From contig NZ_FZNX01000004.1 in NCBI RefSeq assembly GCF_900188355.1, positions 1 to 64,000 on the forward strand: DNA of 64,000 bases. The letters run 5' to 3'. Positions 12,535-32,803 of the stretch are shown here, one piece after another; within the stretch, counting starts at the first letter, position 1; each line of letters opens with the position of its first letter. A program made the position numbers and the translations under genes. The DNA comes from Lutibacter flavus. GTDB taxonomy: Bacteria; Bacteroidota; Bacteroidia; Flavobacteriales; Flavobacteriaceae. The notes under the pieces were generated by a model, which searched no databases, was not told the origin of the DNA, and saw nothing but the letters and a program-made list of their open reading frames with translations.

Positions 12535-12569
12535 TTGATAAAAATCAGTTCCATGACTGATGAGGATCA
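12535..12569. promoter_or_regulatory. Two FNR/CRP-like palindromes upstream of the cytochrome gene
   Basis: TTGAT-AAAA-ATCAG (12535-12548) matches the FNR/FixK consensus TTGAT-N4-ATCAA at nine of ten positions. CTGAT-GAGG-ATCAT (core 12558-12569) has a perfect TGAT/ATCA core. The centres (12541.5 and 12563.5) are 22 bp apart, about two helical turns. Relative to a start near 12606 they sit at about -64.5 and -42.5, the usual places for activating class I and class II Crp/FNR sites. Confidence 0.72.
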
Positions 12570-12592: not shown

Positions 12593-12600
12593 TAACTTTG
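12593..12600 (+). promoter_or_regulatory. Cytochrome gene promoter -7 element (TAACTTTG)
   Basis: Exact TAnnTTTG match 52 bp before the start codon, giving a predicted transcription start near 12606 and a leader of about 47 bases. Confidence 0.7.
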
Positions 12601-12652: not shown

Positions 12653-13120
12653 ATGACTGTTAGAAATAAATTTTTGATCAACCTTCTGAATTATTTAATG
12701 GTGTTTGTCTTGTTATGTGGGAGCTTACTAATAAGTAGCTGCAATAGGCAAGCGCGTGAATTTGCATTACCTGAAGGCGACATTGAAAAGGGGAAAGTCA
12801 CCTATAAGAGATTGGCATGTAATGAATGTCATAGTATTCCAAATATTGAATGGAAGGGCGGAAAAGATAATCTAAAAATACACCTTGGAGGTGAAGTAAC
12901 ATCCCTAAAAACCTATGGAGGTCTGGTTACTTCAGTAATTAACCCTTCCCATAAAGTTGCATCATTCTACAATCAAAAAACCTCTACCGAAGGAGACCTT
13001 TCAATGATGAAGAATTACAATGAAGTTATGACAGTTCAGGAACTTATTGATCTTGTTACTTTTCTTCAATCAAAATATCAAGTAGTATCACCACCAACCG
13101 AATACTATCCTTATTATTGA
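12653..13120 (+). CDS. Lipoprotein c-type cytochrome (single CxxCH)
   Basis: This 155-residue protein has a lipoprotein signal peptide (SLLISSC, lipidated Cys about residue 30), then one haem c motif CNECH at 56-60. Met118, Met119 or Met126 are possible distal haem ligands. The fold looks like a class I monohaem cytochrome with a C-terminal helix (TVQELIDLVTFLQSKY). It would sit on the periplasmic face of a membrane and carry electrons; the partner enzyme cannot be told from the sequence. It is monocistronic here. The two FNR-like boxes upstream imply control by oxygen, nitric oxide or redox state. Its base use is slightly richer in GC than its neighbours. Confidence 0.88.
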   Translation: MTVRNKFLINLLNYLMVFVLLCGSLLISSCNRQAREFALPEGDIEKGKVTYKRLACNECHSIPNIEWKGGKDNLKIHLGGEVTSLKTYGGLVTSVINPSHKVASFYNQKTSTEGDLSMMKNYNEVMTVQELIDLVTFLQSKYQVVSPPTEYYPYY

Positions 13121-14477: not shown

Positions 14478-15635
14478 TTGACAATTGAACATAACATATC
14501 ACGAATAAATTATCTTTTAAAGTTATATAGAATAACTTTGAATGAGTTGTTGGACAAAATCAGCGAAGGTCTTAAAAATCCAATAACTAAAAATGATTTA
14601 TACTCTAGTGAGATTAAAATTAGTCATTTAAAAAAAATTGATAAGATATTTAATAAAGGTCTTGAGTATTATATAAACCCTAAACCTTTAAAGGAAAATA
14701 AAGATGCAAGCATCTTTTTCAGAAAAGATAAATTCAATTCGGATTTAAATATTGGAGCAAAAAAAATTGTAAATCAATTTGAGGATTTAAAAAACTCTCT
14801 AACTGCAATATCTAAACTTTCTGACGTTCATTTTGAAAGAAAAATTCCAATTTATTCGATAAAGGATAACCCTAGAAAAATTGCAGAAAAAGTTAGGGAA
14901 TTGTTATATCCTAATGAATTTTCTCCAATTTTAAGAGACTTTTTAAAAGAACTCATATCAAAATTTGCAGAAAACAATATAATGGTATTTGAGTTTATTG
15001 AAACTTGGAACAAAAAAGATAGAGCAAACATTAATGGTTTTTACATAAAACCCAATGTAATTGTTTTAAAAAGACAACAAAAGTCATTCAGACGAGAAAT
15101 TTTCACTTTAATCCACGAGTTAGCTCATTACTTACTTAATGAAGAAGAAATTGAAGAAGTTGATGTTAAATCTATTTCTCAAAAAGATTTAAGTAAAATT
15201 GAAAATTGGTGTAATGAGTTTTCTTATTTCTTTTTAGTTGGTAATAACGCTAATATTATTGAGAATTTGAAAAAAGCAGATTCTTCCAATGATTATCACT
15301 TTGATTTAATCCAAAGAATCTCAAGAGAAACTAATTTAAGTACATTAGCTCTATATACAAGATTATTATATTCTAGAAAGATTTCATATAAAGGTTATAA
15401 CAATGTAAAAAAAGAGCTTGATGAACGTTATAGAAAAAAAATAGAGGAAGAAAACAGGAAAAAAGAACTTGATAAACTTTCTGGTATTAAAAGAGGAGGA
15501 TCTGTTCCAAAACCTATCAATTCTCCATTATTTGTTAACACATTGCAAACAGCATTATACGGAGGAGTAATTAACGAATATGACTTTTGTAAAAAACTGA
15601 ATATTAAACCTGAAAAAATCGAGCAATATATCTGA
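14478..15635 (+). CDS. ImmA/IrrE family metallopeptidase
   Basis: The 385-residue protein carries the zinc-peptidase motif HELAH at residues 213-217 within FTLIHELAHYLLNEEE, followed by an E-rich segment and NEFSYFFLV, as in ImmA/IrrE proteases. Residues 1-70 may hold a divergent helix-turn-helix (NELLDKISEGL...) but this is weak. ImmA-type proteases cleave repressors or antitoxins. The start is a TTG: the frame closes upstream at 14454-14456 and no ATG occurs near the N-terminus. The stop overlaps the ATG of the next gene by one base, so the two are translationally coupled. This pairing with DUF4411 suggests a toxin-antitoxin-like or defence unit. Confidence 0.85.
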   Translation: MTIEHNISRINYLLKLYRITLNELLDKISEGLKNPITKNDLYSSEIKISHLKKIDKIFNKGLEYYINPKPLKENKDASIFFRKDKFNSDLNIGAKKIVNQFEDLKNSLTAISKLSDVHFERKIPIYSIKDNPRKIAEKVRELLYPNEFSPILRDFLKELISKFAENNIMVFEFIETWNKKDRANINGFYIKPNVIVLKRQQKSFRREIFTLIHELAHYLLNEEEIEEVDVKSISQKDLSKIENWCNEFSYFFLVGNNANIIENLKKADSSNDYHFDLIQRISRETNLSTLALYTRLLYSRKISYKGYNNVKKELDERYRKKIEEENRKKELDKLSGIKRGGSVPKPINSPLFVNTLQTALYGGVINEYDFCKKLNIKPEKIEQYI

Positions 15636-16198
15636 TGAGATTTATAATTGACACGAGTACTTGGGTTTCTTTAGTTAAATATTACAAACCATTTGATAAT
15701 AGTTCTGTTATATATGATTTTTTCAAGAAAAAAATCAAAGATGGAGAATTTATTTTATTATCAGAAGTTTCAACAGAATGCTCATACGTATCAAAAAGAA
15801 TTGTTACAAAAGAATTAGATTTCATAACAAATAAAAAACTTATTACAAAAACAGCAGAATTACTTCCAACTAAAAAATTCTATAATTTATTAGATAATCA
15901 ATTTTGTAATCAGAATCAAAAAAGATTATTATCTGAAGTTGATATTGAGTCTTTAACTAATGATTTTCTAAAATCAGCTGACTCAAAAATAATTCTAAAA
16001 GCTATCGAAATAACGAAAACCTTGGATAATCAGATTACCGTAGTTACTGAAGAAACGAGTTCAAATAATGATAATAAATTATATAAAAAGATTCCTGCCG
16101 TCTGTAAAGAATTAAACGTTAATTGTATTGGGTTACCAAAGCTAATTGAAGGATTCAATAAGGAAATTACGGTTAAAATAAAAAATACCAGTGCCTAA
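15635..16198 (+). CDS. DUF4411 family protein (PIN-like nuclease, putative toxin)
   Basis: This 187-residue protein begins MRFIIDTSTWVSLVKYY, the PIN-type first strand with an acidic residue, and has further acidic positions (SEVSTECSYV, KSADSKIILKA) and a C-terminal VVTEETSSN....KIPAVCKELNV. That layout is typical of DUF4411, a PIN-superfamily group often encoded next to an ImmA/IrrE or XRE partner. PIN domains are Mg-dependent RNases. It is coupled to the upstream gene by the overlapping stop/start. It may be the toxin of the pair, with the upstream protein as regulator; this is inferred from context. A CTAACAATGG motif common after cassette-like genes follows the stop. Confidence 0.8.
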   Translation: MRFIIDTSTWVSLVKYYKPFDNSSVIYDFFKKKIKDGEFILLSEVSTECSYVSKRIVTKELDFITNKKLITKTAELLPTKKFYNLLDNQFCNQNQKRLLSEVDIESLTNDFLKSADSKIILKAIEITKTLDNQITVVTEETSSNNDNKLYKKIPAVCKELNVNCIGLPKLIEGFNKEITVKIKNTSA

Positions 16199-22950: not shown

Positions 22951-24153
22951 ATGAATTATAGAAAATTACATCTTATATTAATTTTAATTATTGGGATTTA
23001 TACTAATAGTTGTGTAACGCCATTTGATATTAAAACCATCACTTTTGAGAGTGCTTTGGTAGTAGAAGCGACAATTTCAAATGAAATAAAACAACAAGAA
23101 ATAAATTTATCCAGAACATTTGATCTTGAAGAAAAAGGTCCTTATACTGAAAGTAATGCAGACGTTATAATTATTGATGACCTTCAAAATATATACAATT
23201 TTAATGAAACTACTCCTGGTAAATATATTTCTAATGAGGAATTTGGCGCTGTAGCGAATAGAAATTATCAATTAAAAATAGTAACAAATGAAGGGAAATC
23301 ATACGCATCTCAACAAACTCAATTAACTAACACTGCTCAAATAGATAAAGTTTATGCTGAAAAATCTGAAGATGGAAAAGGTATAAATATATTTGTAGAT
23401 AGTTACAACCCCAATGGGAATTCTAGATATTATAGATACGTTTATGAAGAAACTTTTAAAATTATAGCCTCAAAATGGTCATATAGGGATTTGGTTTTAG
23501 TATCAAAATATCCGACAATATTTGATTTTGTACCTAGAGATGAAAATAAAAGAAACTGTTATAAAACTATTTATTCCAAAGGTATTATACAAACTGAAAC
23601 AAATAATTTAATTGATGATAAAGTCACAAAGTTTCATGTTAGACATATCAATAATGATAATTATATTATTTCTCATAGATATAGCATGTTATTAAAACAA
23701 TATGTACAATCACAAGAAGCATATACATTTTACAAAACACTCGAGGACTTATCTGGTTCTGAAAGTTTACTTTCGCAAAATCAACCAGGATTTGTTAGTG
23801 GAAATGTTTTCTCAGAAGATAATTCCAATGAAAAAGTGATTGGTTTTTTTGAGGTTTCATCTGTATCAACAAAGAGAATATTTTTTAGTCCAAAAGATCT
23901 TGATTTAATTGTTCCATATCCAAGACCTTATCCTGTACCTTGTCATTTAACAGCTCCTCAACTAAACCCAAGATATGAACTATCATTATTTGAGTATCTC
24001 GAATCTGGAAGATTTCTATTTTATGCGAGAAACGGCCCTGGTGCCCCTCCAGTAGATCCGCCTAACGGAGGACCATATATAATGACAGAAATAGCTTGTG
24101 GAGATTGCACAGAGATAGGCACAAATATAACACCTGATTTTTGGGTTGAATAA
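22951..24153 (+). CDS. DUF4249 family lipoprotein, copy 1
   Basis: The 400-residue protein has a lipobox (IYTNSC, Cys about residue 21) and the DUF4249 layout: an N-terminal beta-sandwich starting PFDIKTITFESALVVEATISNE, then a central region with NSRYYRYVYEETFKI and a late QAYTFYKTLEDLSGSESL-type segment ending with a Cys-rich tail (ACGDCTEIGTNITPDFWVE). DUF4249 lipoproteins accompany TonB receptors and are presumed surface or periplasmic partners. It starts 16 bp after the receptor. The next gene is a close paralog, so this is a tandem duplication. Confidence 0.88.
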   Translation: MNYRKLHLILILIIGIYTNSCVTPFDIKTITFESALVVEATISNEIKQQEINLSRTFDLEEKGPYTESNADVIIIDDLQNIYNFNETTPGKYISNEEFGAVANRNYQLKIVTNEGKSYASQQTQLTNTAQIDKVYAEKSEDGKGINIFVDSYNPNGNSRYYRYVYEETFKIIASKWSYRDLVLVSKYPTIFDFVPRDENKRNCYKTIYSKGIIQTETNNLIDDKVTKFHVRHINNDNYIISHRYSMLLKQYVQSQEAYTFYKTLEDLSGSESLLSQNQPGFVSGNVFSEDNSNEKVIGFFEVSSVSTKRIFFSPKDLDLIVPYPRPYPVPCHLTAPQLNPRYELSLFEYLESGRFLFYARNGPGAPPVDPPNGGPYIMTEIACGDCTEIGTNITPDFWVE

Positions 24154-24162
24154 GTAAAAAAA

Positions 24163-25362
24163 ATGAAGGGTAAGAAATATTATATTATATCAATTTTAAT
24201 TATTGGAATTTTTTTCAATAGCTGCACAGAGCCGTTCGATATTAAATCGATCACTTTTGAGAGTGCTTTAGTAGTTGAAGCAACAATTTCAAATGAATTT
24301 AAACATCAAGAAATAAATTTATCCAGAACATTCAATCTAGAAGAAAAAGGGCCTTCTATTGAAAGTAATGCAGTTGTTAAAATTATAGATGACCTTCAAA
24401 ATATATATAGTTTTCATGAAACTACTCTTGGTAAATATGTTTCTAATGAGGAATTTAGTGCTGTAGATAATAGAAGTTATCAATTGAAAATTATAACAAA
24501 TGAAGGGAAATCATACGCATCACAACTAACTCAATTAACTAACAGTTCTCAAATAGACAAAGTTTCTGTTGAAAAATCTGAAGATGGAAATGGTGTAAAT
24601 ATATTTGTTGACAGTTACAATCCTGATGGGAATTCGAGATATTATAGATTTGAATATGAAGAAACTTATAAAATTGTTGCTCCTAAATGGTCTATGTGGG
24701 ATTTAGTTGTTATTTCTGATGTAAAACCTTATGAATTTGATTTCGTTCTAAGAGATGAACAAAAGAGAATTTGTTATAATACAATAGATTCCAAAGGAAT
24801 TATTTTAACTGAAACAAATAATTTAGTTGATGATAAAATTACAAAGTTTCCAGTTAGATATATCTCTAGAGATAATTACCTAATTTCTCATAGATATAGC
24901 ATGTTATTAAAGCAATATGTACAGTCACAAGAAGCATTTACATTTTACAAAACACTTAATGATTTATCTGGTTCTGAAAATTTATTTTCTCAAAATCAGC
25001 CAGGATTTGTTAGTGGTAATGTTTTCTCAGAAGATAATTCAAATGAAAAAGTGATTGGTTTTTTTGAGGTTTCATCTGTATCAACTAAAAGAATATTTTT
25101 TAATCCAAGAGATCTTGATCTTTCTATTCCATTACCAACACCATACCCAACGGATTGTACTCTTATAGCGCCTGAATTAGACCCGAGATATGGTAAATCA
25201 TTATTCGAATATCTTGATTCAGAAAGTCTGAAATATTTTTACGACAATGATGGTACAGCTGGGCCGGTAATACCAGGAGGTCCATATGTCATGGTCCCAG
25301 TAGAATGTGGAGATTGTACAAAGGTGGGAACAAATATTGCACCTGAATTTTGGGTAGAATAA
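24163..25362 (+). CDS. DUF4249 family lipoprotein, copy 2
   Basis: This 399-residue paralog of the gene upstream shares its lipobox (IFFNSC), ESALVVEATISNE start and GDCT.VGTNIAPEFWVE end. Similarity is high along the whole length and nearly identical around SQNQPGFVSGNVFSEDNSNE. The most variable parts are the middle (KWSMWDLVVISD...) and the proline-rich stretch before the end (PLPTPYPTDCTLIAPELDP), which may be where the copies differ in binding. It begins 9 bp after copy 1 and is part of the same transcript. Confidence 0.88.
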   Translation: MKGKKYYIISILIIGIFFNSCTEPFDIKSITFESALVVEATISNEFKHQEINLSRTFNLEEKGPSIESNAVVKIIDDLQNIYSFHETTLGKYVSNEEFSAVDNRSYQLKIITNEGKSYASQLTQLTNSSQIDKVSVEKSEDGNGVNIFVDSYNPDGNSRYYRFEYEETYKIVAPKWSMWDLVVISDVKPYEFDFVLRDEQKRICYNTIDSKGIILTETNNLVDDKITKFPVRYISRDNYLISHRYSMLLKQYVQSQEAFTFYKTLNDLSGSENLFSQNQPGFVSGNVFSEDNSNEKVIGFFEVSSVSTKRIFFNPRDLDLSIPLPTPYPTDCTLIAPELDPRYGKSLFEYLDSESLKYFYDNDGTAGPVIPGGPYVMVPVECGDCTKVGTNIAPEFWVE

Positions 25363-28585: not shown

Positions 28586-29440
28586 ATGCAAAAACTAATA
28601 GTATTTCTGCTTGTTATTTTGTTTTCAACTGTAATTTATTCACAGAAAAAAGAAGCTTATAGATTGTACAATGCAAAAGGGAGTAAGGTTTCTTATAATA
28701 AAATGATCGATAAAATGAATAAAGCTGACATTGTTTTATTTGGAGAACATCATAACAATCCAATTGTTCACTGGTTGCAATACGAAACTACAAAAGATTT
28801 AAGCAAAAAAAGAAGTTTAACAATGGGTGCAGAAATGTTTGAGGCAGACAACCAGTCTCAATTAAATGCATATCTAGTTGGTGAGATAGATCAAAAAGCA
28901 TTTGATACTGTTGCCAGACTATGGAATAATTATTCAACAGATTATAAGCCGTTAGTCGATTTTGCCAAAACAAAAAACATAAAATTTGTTGCTACAAATG
29001 TACCTAGAAGATTTGCCAGTTTAGTTTTTAAAGGTGGTTTTGAGGTTCTAGAAGAACTTTCTGATGAAGAAAAATCTTGGATGGCTCCTTTGCCAATAAG
29101 TTATGATGCAACTTTACCGGGATATGTAAAAATGAAAGAAATGATGGGTGGTCATGGTGGTGATAATTTGCCAAAGGCTCAGGCAATTAAAGATGCAACA
29201 ATGGGCTACTTTATTTTAAAAAACAGAGAAAATAATAAATTGTTTATTCATTATAATGGTTCATACCATTCTGATGATTATGAAGGTATAAATTGGTACC
29301 TTAACCGAGGGGATAGCAATTTAAAAATTGTTTCTGTAAGTGTAGTTGAACAGGAAAATGTTAAAAAATTTAATAAAGAGAATAAATTAAAAGCAGATTT
29401 TATTATTGTTGTTCCAACTTCTATGACAAAGACTTATTAA
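28586..29440 (+). CDS. ChaN-like haem-binding uptake protein
   Basis: The 284-residue protein has a signal peptide (about 1-20, VIYSQ) and the ChaN/DUF399 core: IVLFGEHHNNPIVHWLQ near residue 50, MGAEMFEADNQSQLNAYL, FVATNVPRRFASLV, and KAQAIKDATMGYF with HYNGSYHSD near the end. ChaN of Campylobacter binds haem and is linked to iron uptake; many members are uncharacterised and resemble the EreA/TIKI fold. No lipobox Cys is seen, so it is probably periplasmic. It is monocistronic and not next to a haem receptor here, so the haem role is inferred only from the family. Confidence 0.85.
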   Translation: MQKLIVFLLVILFSTVIYSQKKEAYRLYNAKGSKVSYNKMIDKMNKADIVLFGEHHNNPIVHWLQYETTKDLSKKRSLTMGAEMFEADNQSQLNAYLVGEIDQKAFDTVARLWNNYSTDYKPLVDFAKTKNIKFVATNVPRRFASLVFKGGFEVLEELSDEEKSWMAPLPISYDATLPGYVKMKEMMGGHGGDNLPKAQAIKDATMGYFILKNRENNKLFIHYNGSYHSDDYEGINWYLNRGDSNLKIVSVSVVEQENVKKFNKENKLKADFIIVVPTSMTKTY

Positions 29441-29559: not shown

Positions 29560-30789
29560 TTGCCTAATTTATTTCATGAAAACGAATTTGTTTTTAATGT
29601 CCTATTTGAAGCAGTTTCTGAAGGTGTTGTTGTTGTTGATGGAAATCAAACAATTGTAGCAACAAATAAAGCTGCTGAAAAAATGTTTGGATATGCTAAA
29701 GATGAATTAAGAACTCAGCAATTACAAATATTGATTCCTCCTAATTATCATCCAACTCATGGTGGTCATTTTAAAAAATATTATAAGGACCCCACAACCA
29801 GGCAAATGGGTCATAAAAGGGAATTATATGGTGCAAAAAAAAATGGAGACAAATTTCCGGTAGAGGTGGGGTTAAATCCGTTTGAAATAAACAATAAAAA
29901 ATATGTAATGTCTATTGTTATTGATATTACTGTACGAAAAGGGGCTGAAGATAAAATTATTGAGTTAAATAAGTTGTTAGAAGGAAAAATATCTGAAAGA
30001 ACTAGTGAGCTGAATAAAACAGTATCAAACCTTCAAAATGAAATTAACAAGAGGGTAAAAGCTGAATCTAAGCTAATAAGTGCCTTAAAAAAAGAAAAGG
30101 AGCTTAATGAATTAAAAACTAAATTTTTATCATTAGTGTCCCATGAATTTAAAACCCCTTTGAGTGGAGTTTTAAATGCAGCAATTTTAGTTGGAAAATA
30201 CAAACTGACTGAAATGCAAGATAAAAGAGAGAAACATTTACTTACAATTAAAAATAAAGTACACTATTTAGATGGAATTTTAAATGATTTTTTATCTATA
30301 GAAAGGTTAGAATCCGGAAAAGTTAACTATAAATTTAGCAGTTTTAAACTGAGTAAAGTGGTAAATGAAGTTATTTACAATGCTAACTTAATGTTAAAAA
30401 ATGGACAATATATTATATATCCAAAAAACATAGATAATCTTGATCTATATCAAGATGAAAAAATTTTGGAATTGGTACTTTCAAATATATTAAATAACGC
30501 AATTAAATATTCGCCTGAAAATACTCAAATCGATTTTAAAATTACTCCAGGCCCAAAAATTATAGTATTTGAGATAAAAGATCAAGGAATTGGAATTCCA
30601 CCAAAAGATCAAAAACATATTTTTAATCGATATTTTAGAGCAGAAAATGCTTTAACAAACCAAGGGACTGGAATAGGTTTAAATATTGTGAAAACACATT
30701 TAGAAAGTTTGGGCGGCTCAGTAATGTTTAAAAGCATACATAATGAAGGAACAACTTTTACTGTAAAATTACCCTTAAATAATAAATAA
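29560..30789 (+). CDS. PAS-domain sensor histidine kinase, FixL-like PAS
   Basis: The 409-residue cytoplasmic kinase has an N-terminal PAS domain (about 10-130), a coiled coil (130-185), HisKA with the phospho-acceptor His195 in LVSHEFKTPLSG, and HATPase_c motifs NILNNAIKYSPEN, DQGIGIPPKD and GTGIGLNIV. No membrane helix is seen. The PAS segment aligns without gaps to FixL such that His67 and Arg87, 20 residues apart, match the haem ligand and distal Arg of FixL. Many non-haem PAS kinases share this pattern, so haem binding is only possible. The start is TTG; the stop overlaps the response regulator ATG by one base. Confidence 0.9.
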   Translation: MPNLFHENEFVFNVLFEAVSEGVVVVDGNQTIVATNKAAEKMFGYAKDELRTQQLQILIPPNYHPTHGGHFKKYYKDPTTRQMGHKRELYGAKKNGDKFPVEVGLNPFEINNKKYVMSIVIDITVRKGAEDKIIELNKLLEGKISERTSELNKTVSNLQNEINKRVKAESKLISALKKEKELNELKTKFLSLVSHEFKTPLSGVLNAAILVGKYKLTEMQDKREKHLLTIKNKVHYLDGILNDFLSIERLESGKVNYKFSSFKLSKVVNEVIYNANLMLKNGQYIIYPKNIDNLDLYQDEKILELVLSNILNNAIKYSPENTQIDFKITPGPKIIVFEIKDQGIGIPPKDQKHIFNRYFRAENALTNQGTGIGLNIVKTHLESLGGSVMFKSIHNEGTTFTVKLPLNNK

Positions 30790-31847
30790 TGAAAAAAATA
30801 TTACTAATAGAAGACGATATTATATTAAGAGAAACAACTGCAGAAATTTTAGAATTAGAAAATTATAAAGTTGTGACTGCGGCTAATGGTAAAAGAGGTG
30901 CGGAACAGGCTAGAATAATGCTTCCTGACTTGATTATTTGTGATATTATGATGCCGGAAATGGATGGATATGATGTATTTAAATTATTATCCGAAGATGA
31001 GAAAACTAAGAGAATTCCATTTATTTTTATGTCGGCTAAAACAGAAATAAAAGACATAAGAAGGGGAATGGACCTAGGTGCAGATGATTATTTAACCAAA
31101 CCAGTTGAAGAGGAACAATTGTTAAGTGCAATTGAAAGTAGATTGGCCAAATCGGAACTTTTAAATGAAGAATTGATTGTTGAAGAAACTTTTGAAGAAA
31201 ATGAGAATTCTTTTGAAAATATTAAAAGCATAGAAGATCTTAAAAATTATTTTTGTGACTTTGGCGAGACCAAAGTTTATAAAAAGGGAGCATTTATTTA
31301 TAAGGAAAATGAAAATTCAAATTTTGTTTATCTAGTTTATAAAGGAAAAGTTAAAGGAGTTAAAATTGACGAATTTGGAAAAGAATTAATAATGACCATT
31401 CATAAAGATGATGATTTATTTGGGTTTTCAGCAATTTTTGATCATTCAAGAAATTATGAGTCGGCAATTACAATGGAAAAAGCTGAGGTAATGGTCGTTC
31501 CAAAAAAGATTGTACAAGAAATATTGCAAAATAATTTCAACCTTTCTTTAAATATTCTTCATTTAATTAATGAACATTTGTATGAAGTAAAAGATCAATT
31601 ATTACAAATGGCCTTTGGCTCTATGCGAAGAAAAACAGCTAAAACCATTTTAAAATTTGCAAATAAGATGCGACATAAACCTTCAACAAGTATTAATATT
31701 TCTCGTCGTGATCTCGCAAGCGTTGCAGGAATTGCAACTGAAAGTTTGATACGGACTTTAACCGATTTAAAAAAAGAAGGAGTAATTGAAATTGAAGGAA
31801 GAAATATTAGAATTGTTGATATTGAAAGGTTAGAGTCTATTTATTAA
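30789..31847 (+). CDS. Response regulator with Crp/FNR-type output (REC-cNMP_bd-HTH_Crp)
   Basis: The 352-residue regulator has a receiver domain (1-125; acidic pocket IEDD, phospho-acceptor Asp52 in ICDIMMPEMDG, Lys in YLTKPV), a linker, a cNMP-binding-like beta-roll (about 155-270; YKKGAFIYKENENSNFVYLVYKGKVKG) and a Crp-type winged helix (about 285-345). The recognition helix GIATESLIRTL keeps Glu318 and Arg322, the two residues that read the TGA core in CRP and FNR, while the FNR Ser position is Ile. No Fe-S cysteine cluster is seen. Translationally coupled to the kinase, it probably binds TGA-N6-TCA sites such as those at 31898 and 12535-12569. Confidence 0.9.
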   Translation: MKKILLIEDDIILRETTAEILELENYKVVTAANGKRGAEQARIMLPDLIICDIMMPEMDGYDVFKLLSEDEKTKRIPFIFMSAKTEIKDIRRGMDLGADDYLTKPVEEEQLLSAIESRLAKSELLNEELIVEETFEENENSFENIKSIEDLKNYFCDFGETKVYKKGAFIYKENENSNFVYLVYKGKVKGVKIDEFGKELIMTIHKDDDLFGFSAIFDHSRNYESAITMEKAEVMVVPKKIVQEILQNNFNLSLNILHLINEHLYEVKDQLLQMAFGSMRRKTAKTILKFANKMRHKPSTSINISRRDLASVAGIATESLIRTLTDLKKEGVIEIEGRNIRIVDIERLESIY

Positions 31848-31897
31848 CTTTTTTATAAAGAATTATTCAAAGTAACTTGGTGAATACAACATTTCAC

Positions 31898-31909
31898 TGA
31901 TTTATGTCA
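31898..31909. promoter_or_regulatory. Crp/FNR-like palindrome upstream of the universal stress gene
   Basis: CTGAT-TTAT-GTCAT has the TGA-N6-TCA core at 31898-31909. Its centre is 36.5 bp upstream of the end of the -7 element at 31933-31940, the same spacing as the proximal site of the cytochrome promoter. It lies between the regulator gene and the USP gene. Confidence 0.62.
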
Positions 31910-31932
31910 TTTATTATTAATACTACATTATA

Positions 31933-31940
31933 TATTTTTG
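31933..31940 (+). promoter_or_regulatory. Universal stress gene promoter -7 element (TATTTTTG)
   Basis: Exact TAnnTTTG match 17 bp before the chosen ATG at 31958. Its presence inside the longer open frame supports the shorter start. Confidence 0.65.
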
Positions 31941-31957
31941 TACTATTAATAAATAGG

Positions 31958-32803
31958 ATGAAAAACATATTAATTTTAACGGATTTTTCTGAGAAATCTT
32001 GGAATTCAATTTTATACGCACTTGGTTTATTTCAAAAAGAGCGTTGTAATTTTTTTGTTCTCAATGCAGGCATTAGAGATGAAAATGAAATTCAGGAAAC
32101 TGGTTATAATCAATTAGAATTGGTTCATGTTAGAAATAAACGAGATGTAAAAAGAGAGTTTGATAAATTAATTAAAAGAATTGATTCCTTAACTCTAAAA
32201 AATGGACATCATTTTTATCCAGTTATTGAAGATGATAATATTATTGAAGCAACTAGAAAACAAGTTAAAGATAAGGATATAGATTTAATTGTAATTGGAG
32301 CTGATGATATGTCATTAAAAGGAAAATTAAATAAAAACTCCATATCTGAGGATGTAATTACTAAAGTAAAATGTTCTGTTTTAGTTGTTCCAAAAAAAGC
32401 GAAGTTTAATGGTTTAGAAGAGATTGGTTTTCCAACGGACTACACCAATTTTTATGAAGCTAAATTATTTGAGGAATTGATAAGCAAAGTTAGTTGTTGT
32501 GATTCTGCTCTTAAATTTTTGCATTTATGTAAAAAGAAAGAAGTACTTAATAAAGAGCAAAAGTGGAATAAAGAAACATTACATGATTATTTTATTGATG
32601 AGGAACATAGTTTTCATTCTGAGACAAATAAAAATCTTGAAGAATCATTAGAGTATTTCATAGATTCTATGGGGATTAACCTTATCGTATTGGCTGCAAA
32701 AAATCTTAATTTGTTGGAGCAGATTTTATTTAGACCAAAAATAGAAGACTTAAATTATTATTCTAGCACACCATTTCTTGCGCTTCACCAATCAAATAAA
32801 TAA
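31958..32803 (+). CDS. Universal stress protein, two-domain (UspA family)
   Basis: The 281-residue protein begins MKNILILTDFSEKSWNSILYAL, the standard USP first strand and helix. The first domain ends with LIVIGADDMSLKGKLNKNSISEDVITKVKCSVLVVP, which resembles the ATP-binding G-x2-G-x9-G(S/T) loop but lacks the full motif. The second half (about 145-281) is a degenerate USP domain. The frame also opens at 31904, but those 18 residues are hydrophobic and untypical and overlap the promoter. It follows the PAS kinase and REC-Crp regulator and carries a matching palindrome, so it is probably a target of that pair. USPs of this kind respond to redox or energy stress. Confidence 0.85.
   Translation: MKNILILTDFSEKSWNSILYALGLFQKERCNFFVLNAGIRDENEIQETGYNQLELVHVRNKRDVKREFDKLIKRIDSLTLKNGHHFYPVIEDDNIIEATRKQVKDKDIDLIVIGADDMSLKGKLNKNSISEDVITKVKCSVLVVPKKAKFNGLEEIGFPTDYTNFYEAKLFEELISKVSCCDSALKFLHLCKKKEVLNKEQKWNKETLHDYFIDEEHSFHSETNKNLEESLEYFIDSMGINLIVLAAKNLNLLEQILFRPKIEDLNYYSSTPFLALHQSNK

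Follow-up and report, generated by a model that had tools for sequence, protein, structure and literature searches.

A PAS kinase, a receiver-Crp/FNR fusion regulator and an anaerobox-bearing promoter form a candidate two-component switch for a universal stress protein gene in Lutibacter flavus

The FixL-FixJ-FixK system of rhizobia joins a PAS kinase to a final regulator of the Crp/FNR type, where FixJ consists of a receiver (REC) and a LuxR/NarL-type output and FixK stands alone. A related two-component input to anaerobox genes is provided by hFixL-FxkR-FixK of Rhizobium leguminosarum, in which FxkR is described as a distinct protein that exerts its effect via expression of fixK (PMC7888657). 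In this study, we examined a 64,000-nucleotide stretch of Lutibacter flavus DNA (contig NZ_FZNX01000004.1, positions 1 to 64,000), hereafter the window, which carries contiguous genes for a PAS histidine kinase, a response regulator with a receiver fused to a Crp-type output (hereafter REC-Crp) and a universal stress protein (USP). This module resembles the Fix system in its PAS kinase, its Crp/FNR-type final regulator, the TGAT-N4-ATCA core of the associated sites and the cbb3- and HemN-type genes found near some of its relatives. It differs in that one protein takes the place of FixJ plus FixK with no transcriptional relay, the receiver is nearest to OmpR/PleD types, C rather than T precedes TGAT, and haem sensing is only possible.

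Other described systems share different parts of this arrangement. FNR, Anr and FixK2 have the same fold, E...R recognition pattern and box core, whereas the window regulator lacks their N-terminal Fe-S cysteine cluster and would be controlled via its attached receiver. USP genes are among those controlled by Anr-type regulators. In Myxococcus xanthus, the two-component system NmpRSTU likewise controls HemN and a cbb3-type oxidase together with a USP gene, but it employs an NtrC-like regulator, a protoglobin haem sensor and a phosphorelay (PMC11841059). Titles and abstracts of the open-access literature, with long result lists covered in part, yielded no description of a REC-Crp regulator like this one or of 22-bp tandem anaeroboxes in Bacteroidota, which is not proof of absence for either. 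The elements of the module are the following.

29560..30789, + strand: PAS histidine kinase, 409 amino acids, TTG start; PAS_9, HisKA and HATPase_c domains (Pfam), acceptor H195
30789..31847, + strand: response regulator, 352 amino acids; Response_reg 4-116, cNMP_binding 162-249, HTH_Crp_2 284-350 (Pfam)
31898..31909, + strand: window-type anaerobox TGATTTATGTCA, one mismatch to TGAT-N4-ATCA; predicted centre about -41.5
31933..31940, + strand: -7 element TATTTTTG, 23 nt past the box, a spacing as in 141 aligned related sites; predicted transcription start 31945
31958..32803, + strand: USP, 281 amino acids, PF00582; likely main target, likely start ATG 31958

Both signalling proteins carry the residues expected of a two-component pair. 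The H195 residue, N box and G box of the kinase are all intact, and its maximum 19-residue mean on the Kyte-Doolittle scale is only 1.46, so no transmembrane helix is evident. The kinase stop and regulator start codons share one base (TAATG), an overlap already claimed in a preliminary description of this DNA. The receiver matches Response_reg at 1.8e-28 and has the acidic pair D9/D10, the acceptor D52, S82 and K104; in an alignment of REC-Crp proteins, D52 and K104 are present in 137/137 rows and position 82 is Ser or Thr in every one of these. The remainder of the regulator belongs to the Crp/FNR superfamily by its cNMP_binding-type beta-roll and HTH_Crp domain. Its recognition helix carries E318 and R322, the two residues that the preliminary description had named, and we take these to be the positions that read TGA.

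A structure prediction for the 352-residue regulator, as proposed in that description, yields a sensible domain order of REC, helix 108-144, beta-roll, helix 250-293 and winged helix-turn-helix (HTH), with a mean predicted local distance difference test score of 79.6 and a predicted template modelling score (pTM) of 0.40. When this model was compared with known structures by using Foldseek, the 50 rows shown were all Crp/FNR-family chains by description, with root-mean-square deviations of 6.1-14.2. Given these deviations and the pTM of 0.40, we claim nothing on the arrangement of the domains. In cAMP-responsive CRP proteins, a Glu and an Arg of the pocket contact cAMP. The regulator positions that align with the cAMP contacts of GlxR hold other residues, and the same is true in the family alignment. 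An FNR-type N-terminal Cys cluster for 4Fe-4S was not found in the regulator sequence, which contains only C51 and C156.

The module is conserved. At least 582 relatives were found, and the closest 80 Flavobacteriia loci were kept for a survey of neighbouring genes. The kinase gene lies directly upstream of the regulator gene in 79/80 loci, overlapping it in 36/79, and a USP gene lies directly downstream in 77/80 and within 10 kb in 78/80. These counts, together with the Pfam domains, bear out the earlier claim of a contiguous module. Other genes recurring within 10 kb are of the ATP-cone/Mrr type (30 loci), thioredoxin-like (29) and of the metallo-beta-lactamase/beta-CASP/RMMBL type (27), followed by HPF (21), HSP20, COX1/CcoN-type and metal ATPase genes (14 each), and FixG-type (13), FixP-type (13), FixH-like (12) and HemN-like genes (11). 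For these names, one representative of each of ten clusters was checked against Pfam (one had no match), and the thioredoxin and FixH names, as well as HemN within radical SAM, were assigned by reading the sequences. The survey of neighbours that had been suggested earlier thus finds kinase and USP genes nearly always, with redox genes such as cbb3 and HemN near some relatives only.

REC-Crp relatives at E <= 1e-40 were detected in 42/100 sampled genomes of the family (at most 20 first-look candidates scored in each), and a phylum-wide sample gave 38/247 genomes (at most 8 candidates scored in each), including several other families of the class. Because few candidates were scored per genome, absences are soft. 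One locus each was taken from 20 of the 22 hit-bearing genomes outside the family, and the regulator was resolved in 19 of these. A same-strand kinase gene is directly upstream in 16/19, cbb3/Fix/HemN-type genes are nearby in 6/19, and USP or HSP20 genes are nearby in 10/19 (names by cluster similarity). The window locus itself is syntenic in three Lutibacter contigs (L050-L052). The gene directly upstream of the kinase gene (28586-29440), also present in these three contigs, encodes a ChaN-like protein of a Pfam haem-binding uptake family.

An alternative start of the USP gene at 31904 falls within the box, and orthologues begin M-K-N-I/V-L as does the protein read from 31958; the latter start is therefore preferred. 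The box alone proves little: the window holds 83 matches with at most one mismatch to TGAT-N4-ATCA against 58 expected. The comparative data carry the weight. Palindromes of 4 and 5 bases with spacers of 0-10 were counted upstream of recurring neighbours and, for comparison, elsewhere in these loci. The top dyad was TGAT-N4-ATCA (107/337 upstream regions versus 100/577 comparison regions, a factor of 1.8), and it occurs in 239/1009 upstream regions of related loci against 5.85 expected from shuffles, where related loci are not independent observations.

The distance to the promoter is fixed. In a set of 141 sites, each 55-80 nt ahead of a start codon, a TAnnTTT element has its TA at +35, counted from where the box begins (T 91%, A 94%). 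A flavobacterial start-site map places TAnnTTTG at -12 to -5 (PMC9723704), and this placement combined with the fixed 23-nt spacing puts the box centre at -41.5. TGA-N6-TCA with a correctly spaced -7 element is found at most 250 nt downstream of the regulator gene in 109/137 rows (130 different), compared with 0.35 expected from dinucleotide shuffles. The site core before the USP gene is thus judged from sequence to be FNR/FixK-like, because TGAT-N4-ATCA tops the dyads and the window box shares its promoter geometry. Of the FixK site TTGAT-N4-ATCAA, which the preliminary description cited for rhizobia, the relatives share this core but not the outer T: the base preceding TGAT in the 141 sites is C in 54%, A in 30% and T in only 11%.

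The L. flavus genome encodes two further full-length REC-Crp relatives, at C8:406138 (53%) and C8:848636 (42%). In a quick tree, which leaves out six short loci including the C8:848636 copy, the window regulator belongs to a 21-row clade (18 rows differ) whose SH-aLRT support is 100. This window clade consists of Lutibacter and one Flavobacteriaceae metagenome-assembled genome, and is separate from the clade of the C8:406138 copy. All 21 of its rows (18 different) have a box with a GTCA right half and a spaced -7 element. A box and -7 element within 250 nt of the regulator gene are present in 88 of the 116 rows outside the clade, and the canonical box variant is TTGATATATATCA. A separate difference concerns regulator residue C156 (window 31254-31256), which is Cys in 21/21 window-clade rows and Asp in 82/116 others; this residue is possibly a redox site. 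The island around the canonical REC-Crp copy (C8:396001-416000, L242) contains HPF, USP, membrane and ABC-like genes and three promoter-spaced TGAGGAATATCATT boxes.

The exact variant CTGAYTWATGTCATT occurs at 20 sites in 38 Lutibacter genomes under the strict pattern. It is present in 18/19 genomes with a window-type regulator versus 1/19 without, where window type was assigned by identity (68-100%, plus fragments in G110 and G116). Seventeen of the 20 sites lie in the USP promoter beside the regulator gene. The other three precede NuoA-like (G115), HemA-like (G110) and DUF302-like (G118) genes, named by eye. One genome (G100) has a diverged box, and G110 carries a fragment of the regulator where a contig begins, with the lone exact match lying before the HemA-like gene. 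As far as the strict pattern tells, the window copy seems to serve almost exclusively as a switch of its own USP promoter, because the variant tracks the window-type regulator and most of its sites lie beside it.

The architecture, its conservation, the box, the promoter geometry and the clade-specific variant are all read directly from the sequences compared, and on this footing we regard the two-component anaerobox switch as real. As to its function, we infer phosphotransfer, the direction of regulation, the signal, and binding of the box by the window regulator rather than by an FNR-like protein. In the proposed mechanism, a signal, which is most likely oxygen or redox state, would cause the PAS kinase to autophosphorylate at H195, and the phosphate would pass to D52 of the regulator. 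Ordinary Crp/FNR proteins are controlled by a ligand; in the regulator, which lacks their cNMP-contact residues, phosphorylation would take over this role. A dimer of the phosphorylated regulator would then occupy the 31898-31909 box, whose centre lies near -41.5, and bring about class-II activation of the USP promoter. The window copy would be a clade-specific paralogue narrowed to essentially this promoter, while the two other REC-Crp regulators and an FNR-like protein would read related single or tandem boxes before anaerobic and stress genes. We assign a probability of about 0.62 to a dedicated two-component switch running from the kinase through the regulator to the USP promoter via this box.

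Several observations weigh against this reading. The GTCA right half is also present in 28/88 boxes of rows outside the window clade, and a rule equating the window paralogue with GTCA and all others with ATCA was dropped for this reason. The few scanned neighbours of the window copy beyond the USP gene are non-respiratory, with the ChaN-like gene upstream and a Vps10/sortilin-like gene downstream. Redox sensing by the PAS domain is a possibility only, and R87, aligned with the distal haem Arg, is Arg in 10/21 window-clade kinases. Moreover, boxed promoters also exist in genomes without REC-Crp, at 1.0 per Mb versus 2.4 per Mb with it, figures that are uncorrected for kinship and in which REC-Crp presence was scored on no more than 20 first-look candidates in each genome. 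In family genomes at least 90% complete and 2.5 Mb in size, the median number of strict box-promoter combinations is 7 with REC-Crp (n=39) and 3 without (n=33; p about 6e-6, kinship not corrected).

The L. flavus genome encodes another candidate reader of the boxes. The FNR-like protein L001, with an N-terminal CxxC, has the recognition helix TATESAIRLL, near IATESLIRTL of the window regulator, and may therefore bind the window box; this too counts against a dedicated switch. The helices of five other non-REC Crp proteins of the genome (L004-L007 and L009) are unlike the ATES-IR pattern, so the box code may be common to the three REC-Crp proteins and L001, as judged from their helices. A relaxed box-promoter pattern gives 84 matches in the genome versus 23 in a reversed control, and the strict pattern gives 29 versus 2. 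The relaxed matches comprise 53 outside long open reading frames (ORFs) with a gene downstream, 15 within ORFs and 16 with no downstream ORF in the stretch covered; part of them is expected to be chance, and no match is tied to one particular regulator. Pfam searches with 20 proteins encoded downstream of boxes identified, among others, a NorC-like cytochrome, a ResB type, pyruvate:ferredoxin oxidoreductases, ferredoxins, a molybdopterin oxidoreductase, NADH dehydrogenase chain 3 (NuoA type), a multihaem cytochrome, USPs and a CBS protein. Some genes that follow boxes show no obvious connection, for example those for a restriction-endonuclease-like and a hydrolase-family protein. Anaerobic targets of this kind would suit L001 as reader of the USP box, with the window regulator acting elsewhere or only modulating. 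However, the distribution of CTGAYTWATGTCATT, which follows the window-type regulator across Lutibacter genomes and lies mostly beside it, and the unlike helices of the five other Crp proteins make this explanation improbable.

The nature of the signal leaves room for two further accounts. One is that the module is driven by a haem-based oxygen sensor of the FixL kind. In favour of this, the kinase PAS domain matched 18 PDB sequences, with FixL and DosP best (1d06, E 1e-13). Thirteen of the best 14 matches are FixL or DosP and one is a multi-sensor kinase (10jx), and the last four of the 18 are blue-light or sensory-box proteins. In the alignment with the FixL/DosP PAS domains, H67 falls on the proximal His of the haem site, and the distal Arg corresponds to R87. 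A strong haem-sensing reading drawn from this alignment was downgraded after these columns were checked in the kinase rows. Across the aligned kinases, H67 is kept in 95/101 rows but R87 is Arg in 71/101 (99 different). The window-clade kinases have the proximal His in 21/21 rows, show S, T, K or Q where the distal Arg is missing, and carry an insertion beside H67 in four rows. In the same genome, the kinase of the canonical REC-Crp copy has Tyr at H67 and that of the third copy lacks the segment. FixL-type haem sensing is therefore hinted at by the sequence and only possible, and a haem sensor as driver of the module seems to us a doubtful proposition with some chance of being right. Slightly less probable, and on balance unlikely, is an ordinary two-component pair that answers a cue other than redox, for example energy or stationary-phase stress, with the FNR-like box merely following from the Crp/FNR-type output. 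The USP, HPF and HSP20 neighbours, as general stress or dormancy genes, agree with this idea, as do the non-respiratory neighbours of the window copy, but the cbb3/Fix/HemN-type genes at 6/19 other-family loci and, per gene family, at 11-14/80 Flavobacteriia loci argue against it.

The preliminary description had also proposed that two tiers, FixJ and FixK, are collapsed into one protein. Descent of this kind finds no backing in family matches. The best NCBIfam matches of the receiver are CseB, PleD and PhoB, with NarL (1e-17) and TtrR (3.7e-16) far below them. For the Crp part, FixK (1.8e-18), CRP (1.6e-17) and FtrB (2.2e-17) are about equally good matches. The Fix comparison is apt for the possible working of the module, not as descent.

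A second group of boxes in the window had likewise been named as a target of the regulator.

12536..12569, + strand: tandem anaeroboxes TGATAAAAATCA (12536-12547) and TGATGAGGATCA (12558-12569), both exact; predicted centres about -63.5 and -41.5
12593..12599, + strand: -7 element TAACTTT, 23 nt past the proximal tandem box; predicted transcription start 12605
12653..13120, + strand: lipoprotein-like protein, 155 amino acids, encoded past the tandem boxes; CNECH c-type haem motif (by eye), no Pfam match at E 0.001

Such pairs form a distinct class. TGA-N6-TCA pairs with a 10-base spacer occur 16 times in the 20 out-of-family loci, compared with 0-2 times for every other spacer from 0 to 25, and 4 times versus 0-2 in the 80 family loci. 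The L. flavus genome has 10 tandem sites at this 22-bp pitch, including the window pair, and its reversed control has 0; three of them (C8:404148, C8:404749 and C8:848586) are no more than about 2 kb away from the two other REC-Crp genes. In the phylum sample, four or more tandem sites are present in 14/38 genomes with REC-Crp versus 1/209 without, and in the rest of the class two or more are present in 21/22 versus 3/12. The corresponding family figures are 5/16 versus 0/11 with a median of 0 in both groups, which weakens the broad view that any REC-Crp is accompanied by tandem boxes. Longer arrays, with three or four boxes and an identical pitch, were seen in G103 (C151:7014-7091 and C94:6766-6821), with further arrays in G142 (C2:2518584-2518639) and G284 (C5:324937-324992).

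Within Lutibacter, 25 genomes with another REC-Crp type (identity 39-56%) average 5.7 tandem sites, whereas the counts are 1, 1, 0, 1 and 1 in the five whose sole REC-Crp type is an intact window-type copy. Two genomes with only window-type fragments have 3 each, and six without REC-Crp have a mean of 1.5, including one genome with 3 and another, 62% complete, with 5. Since counts are low in the window-type-only genomes, the tandem class does not follow the window type. The pair at 12536-12569 was therefore rejected as a target of the window copy in our preferred reading, and is probably read by the other REC-Crp copies or the FNR-like protein, to judge from this comparison. Of the two targets named earlier, only the box at 31898-31909 is retained, with its clade-wide occurrence and -7 spacing.

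Two features elsewhere in the window were noted. The gene pair at 14478-16198 resembles an ImmA/IrrE-type metallopeptidase and a PIN-like protein, and may be a toxin-antitoxin pair. At 22951-25362 lie two adjacent, very similar lipoprotein-like genes for proteins of about 400 amino acids, apparently a tandem duplication.

Taken more broadly, and quite tentatively, Bacteroidota may have their own anaerobox code that operates via phosphorylation-controlled REC-Crp proteins. The widespread types would bind arrays of TGA-N6-TCA boxes with a 22-bp pitch before low-oxygen and dormancy genes, possibly as cooperating side-by-side dimers, and the Lutibacter-clade paralogue would have changed its box and become private to one USP gene. 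If this is true, a large group of environmental bacteria runs its low-oxygen and dormancy genes by a one-step two-component system with a Crp/FNR output. Much of the DNA code, comprising the box, the promoter spacing and the tandem 22-bp class, would then be readable, allowing direct prediction of regulons in many Bacteroidota genomes, and the window copy would offer a natural example in which a regulator was duplicated and its box changed along with it.

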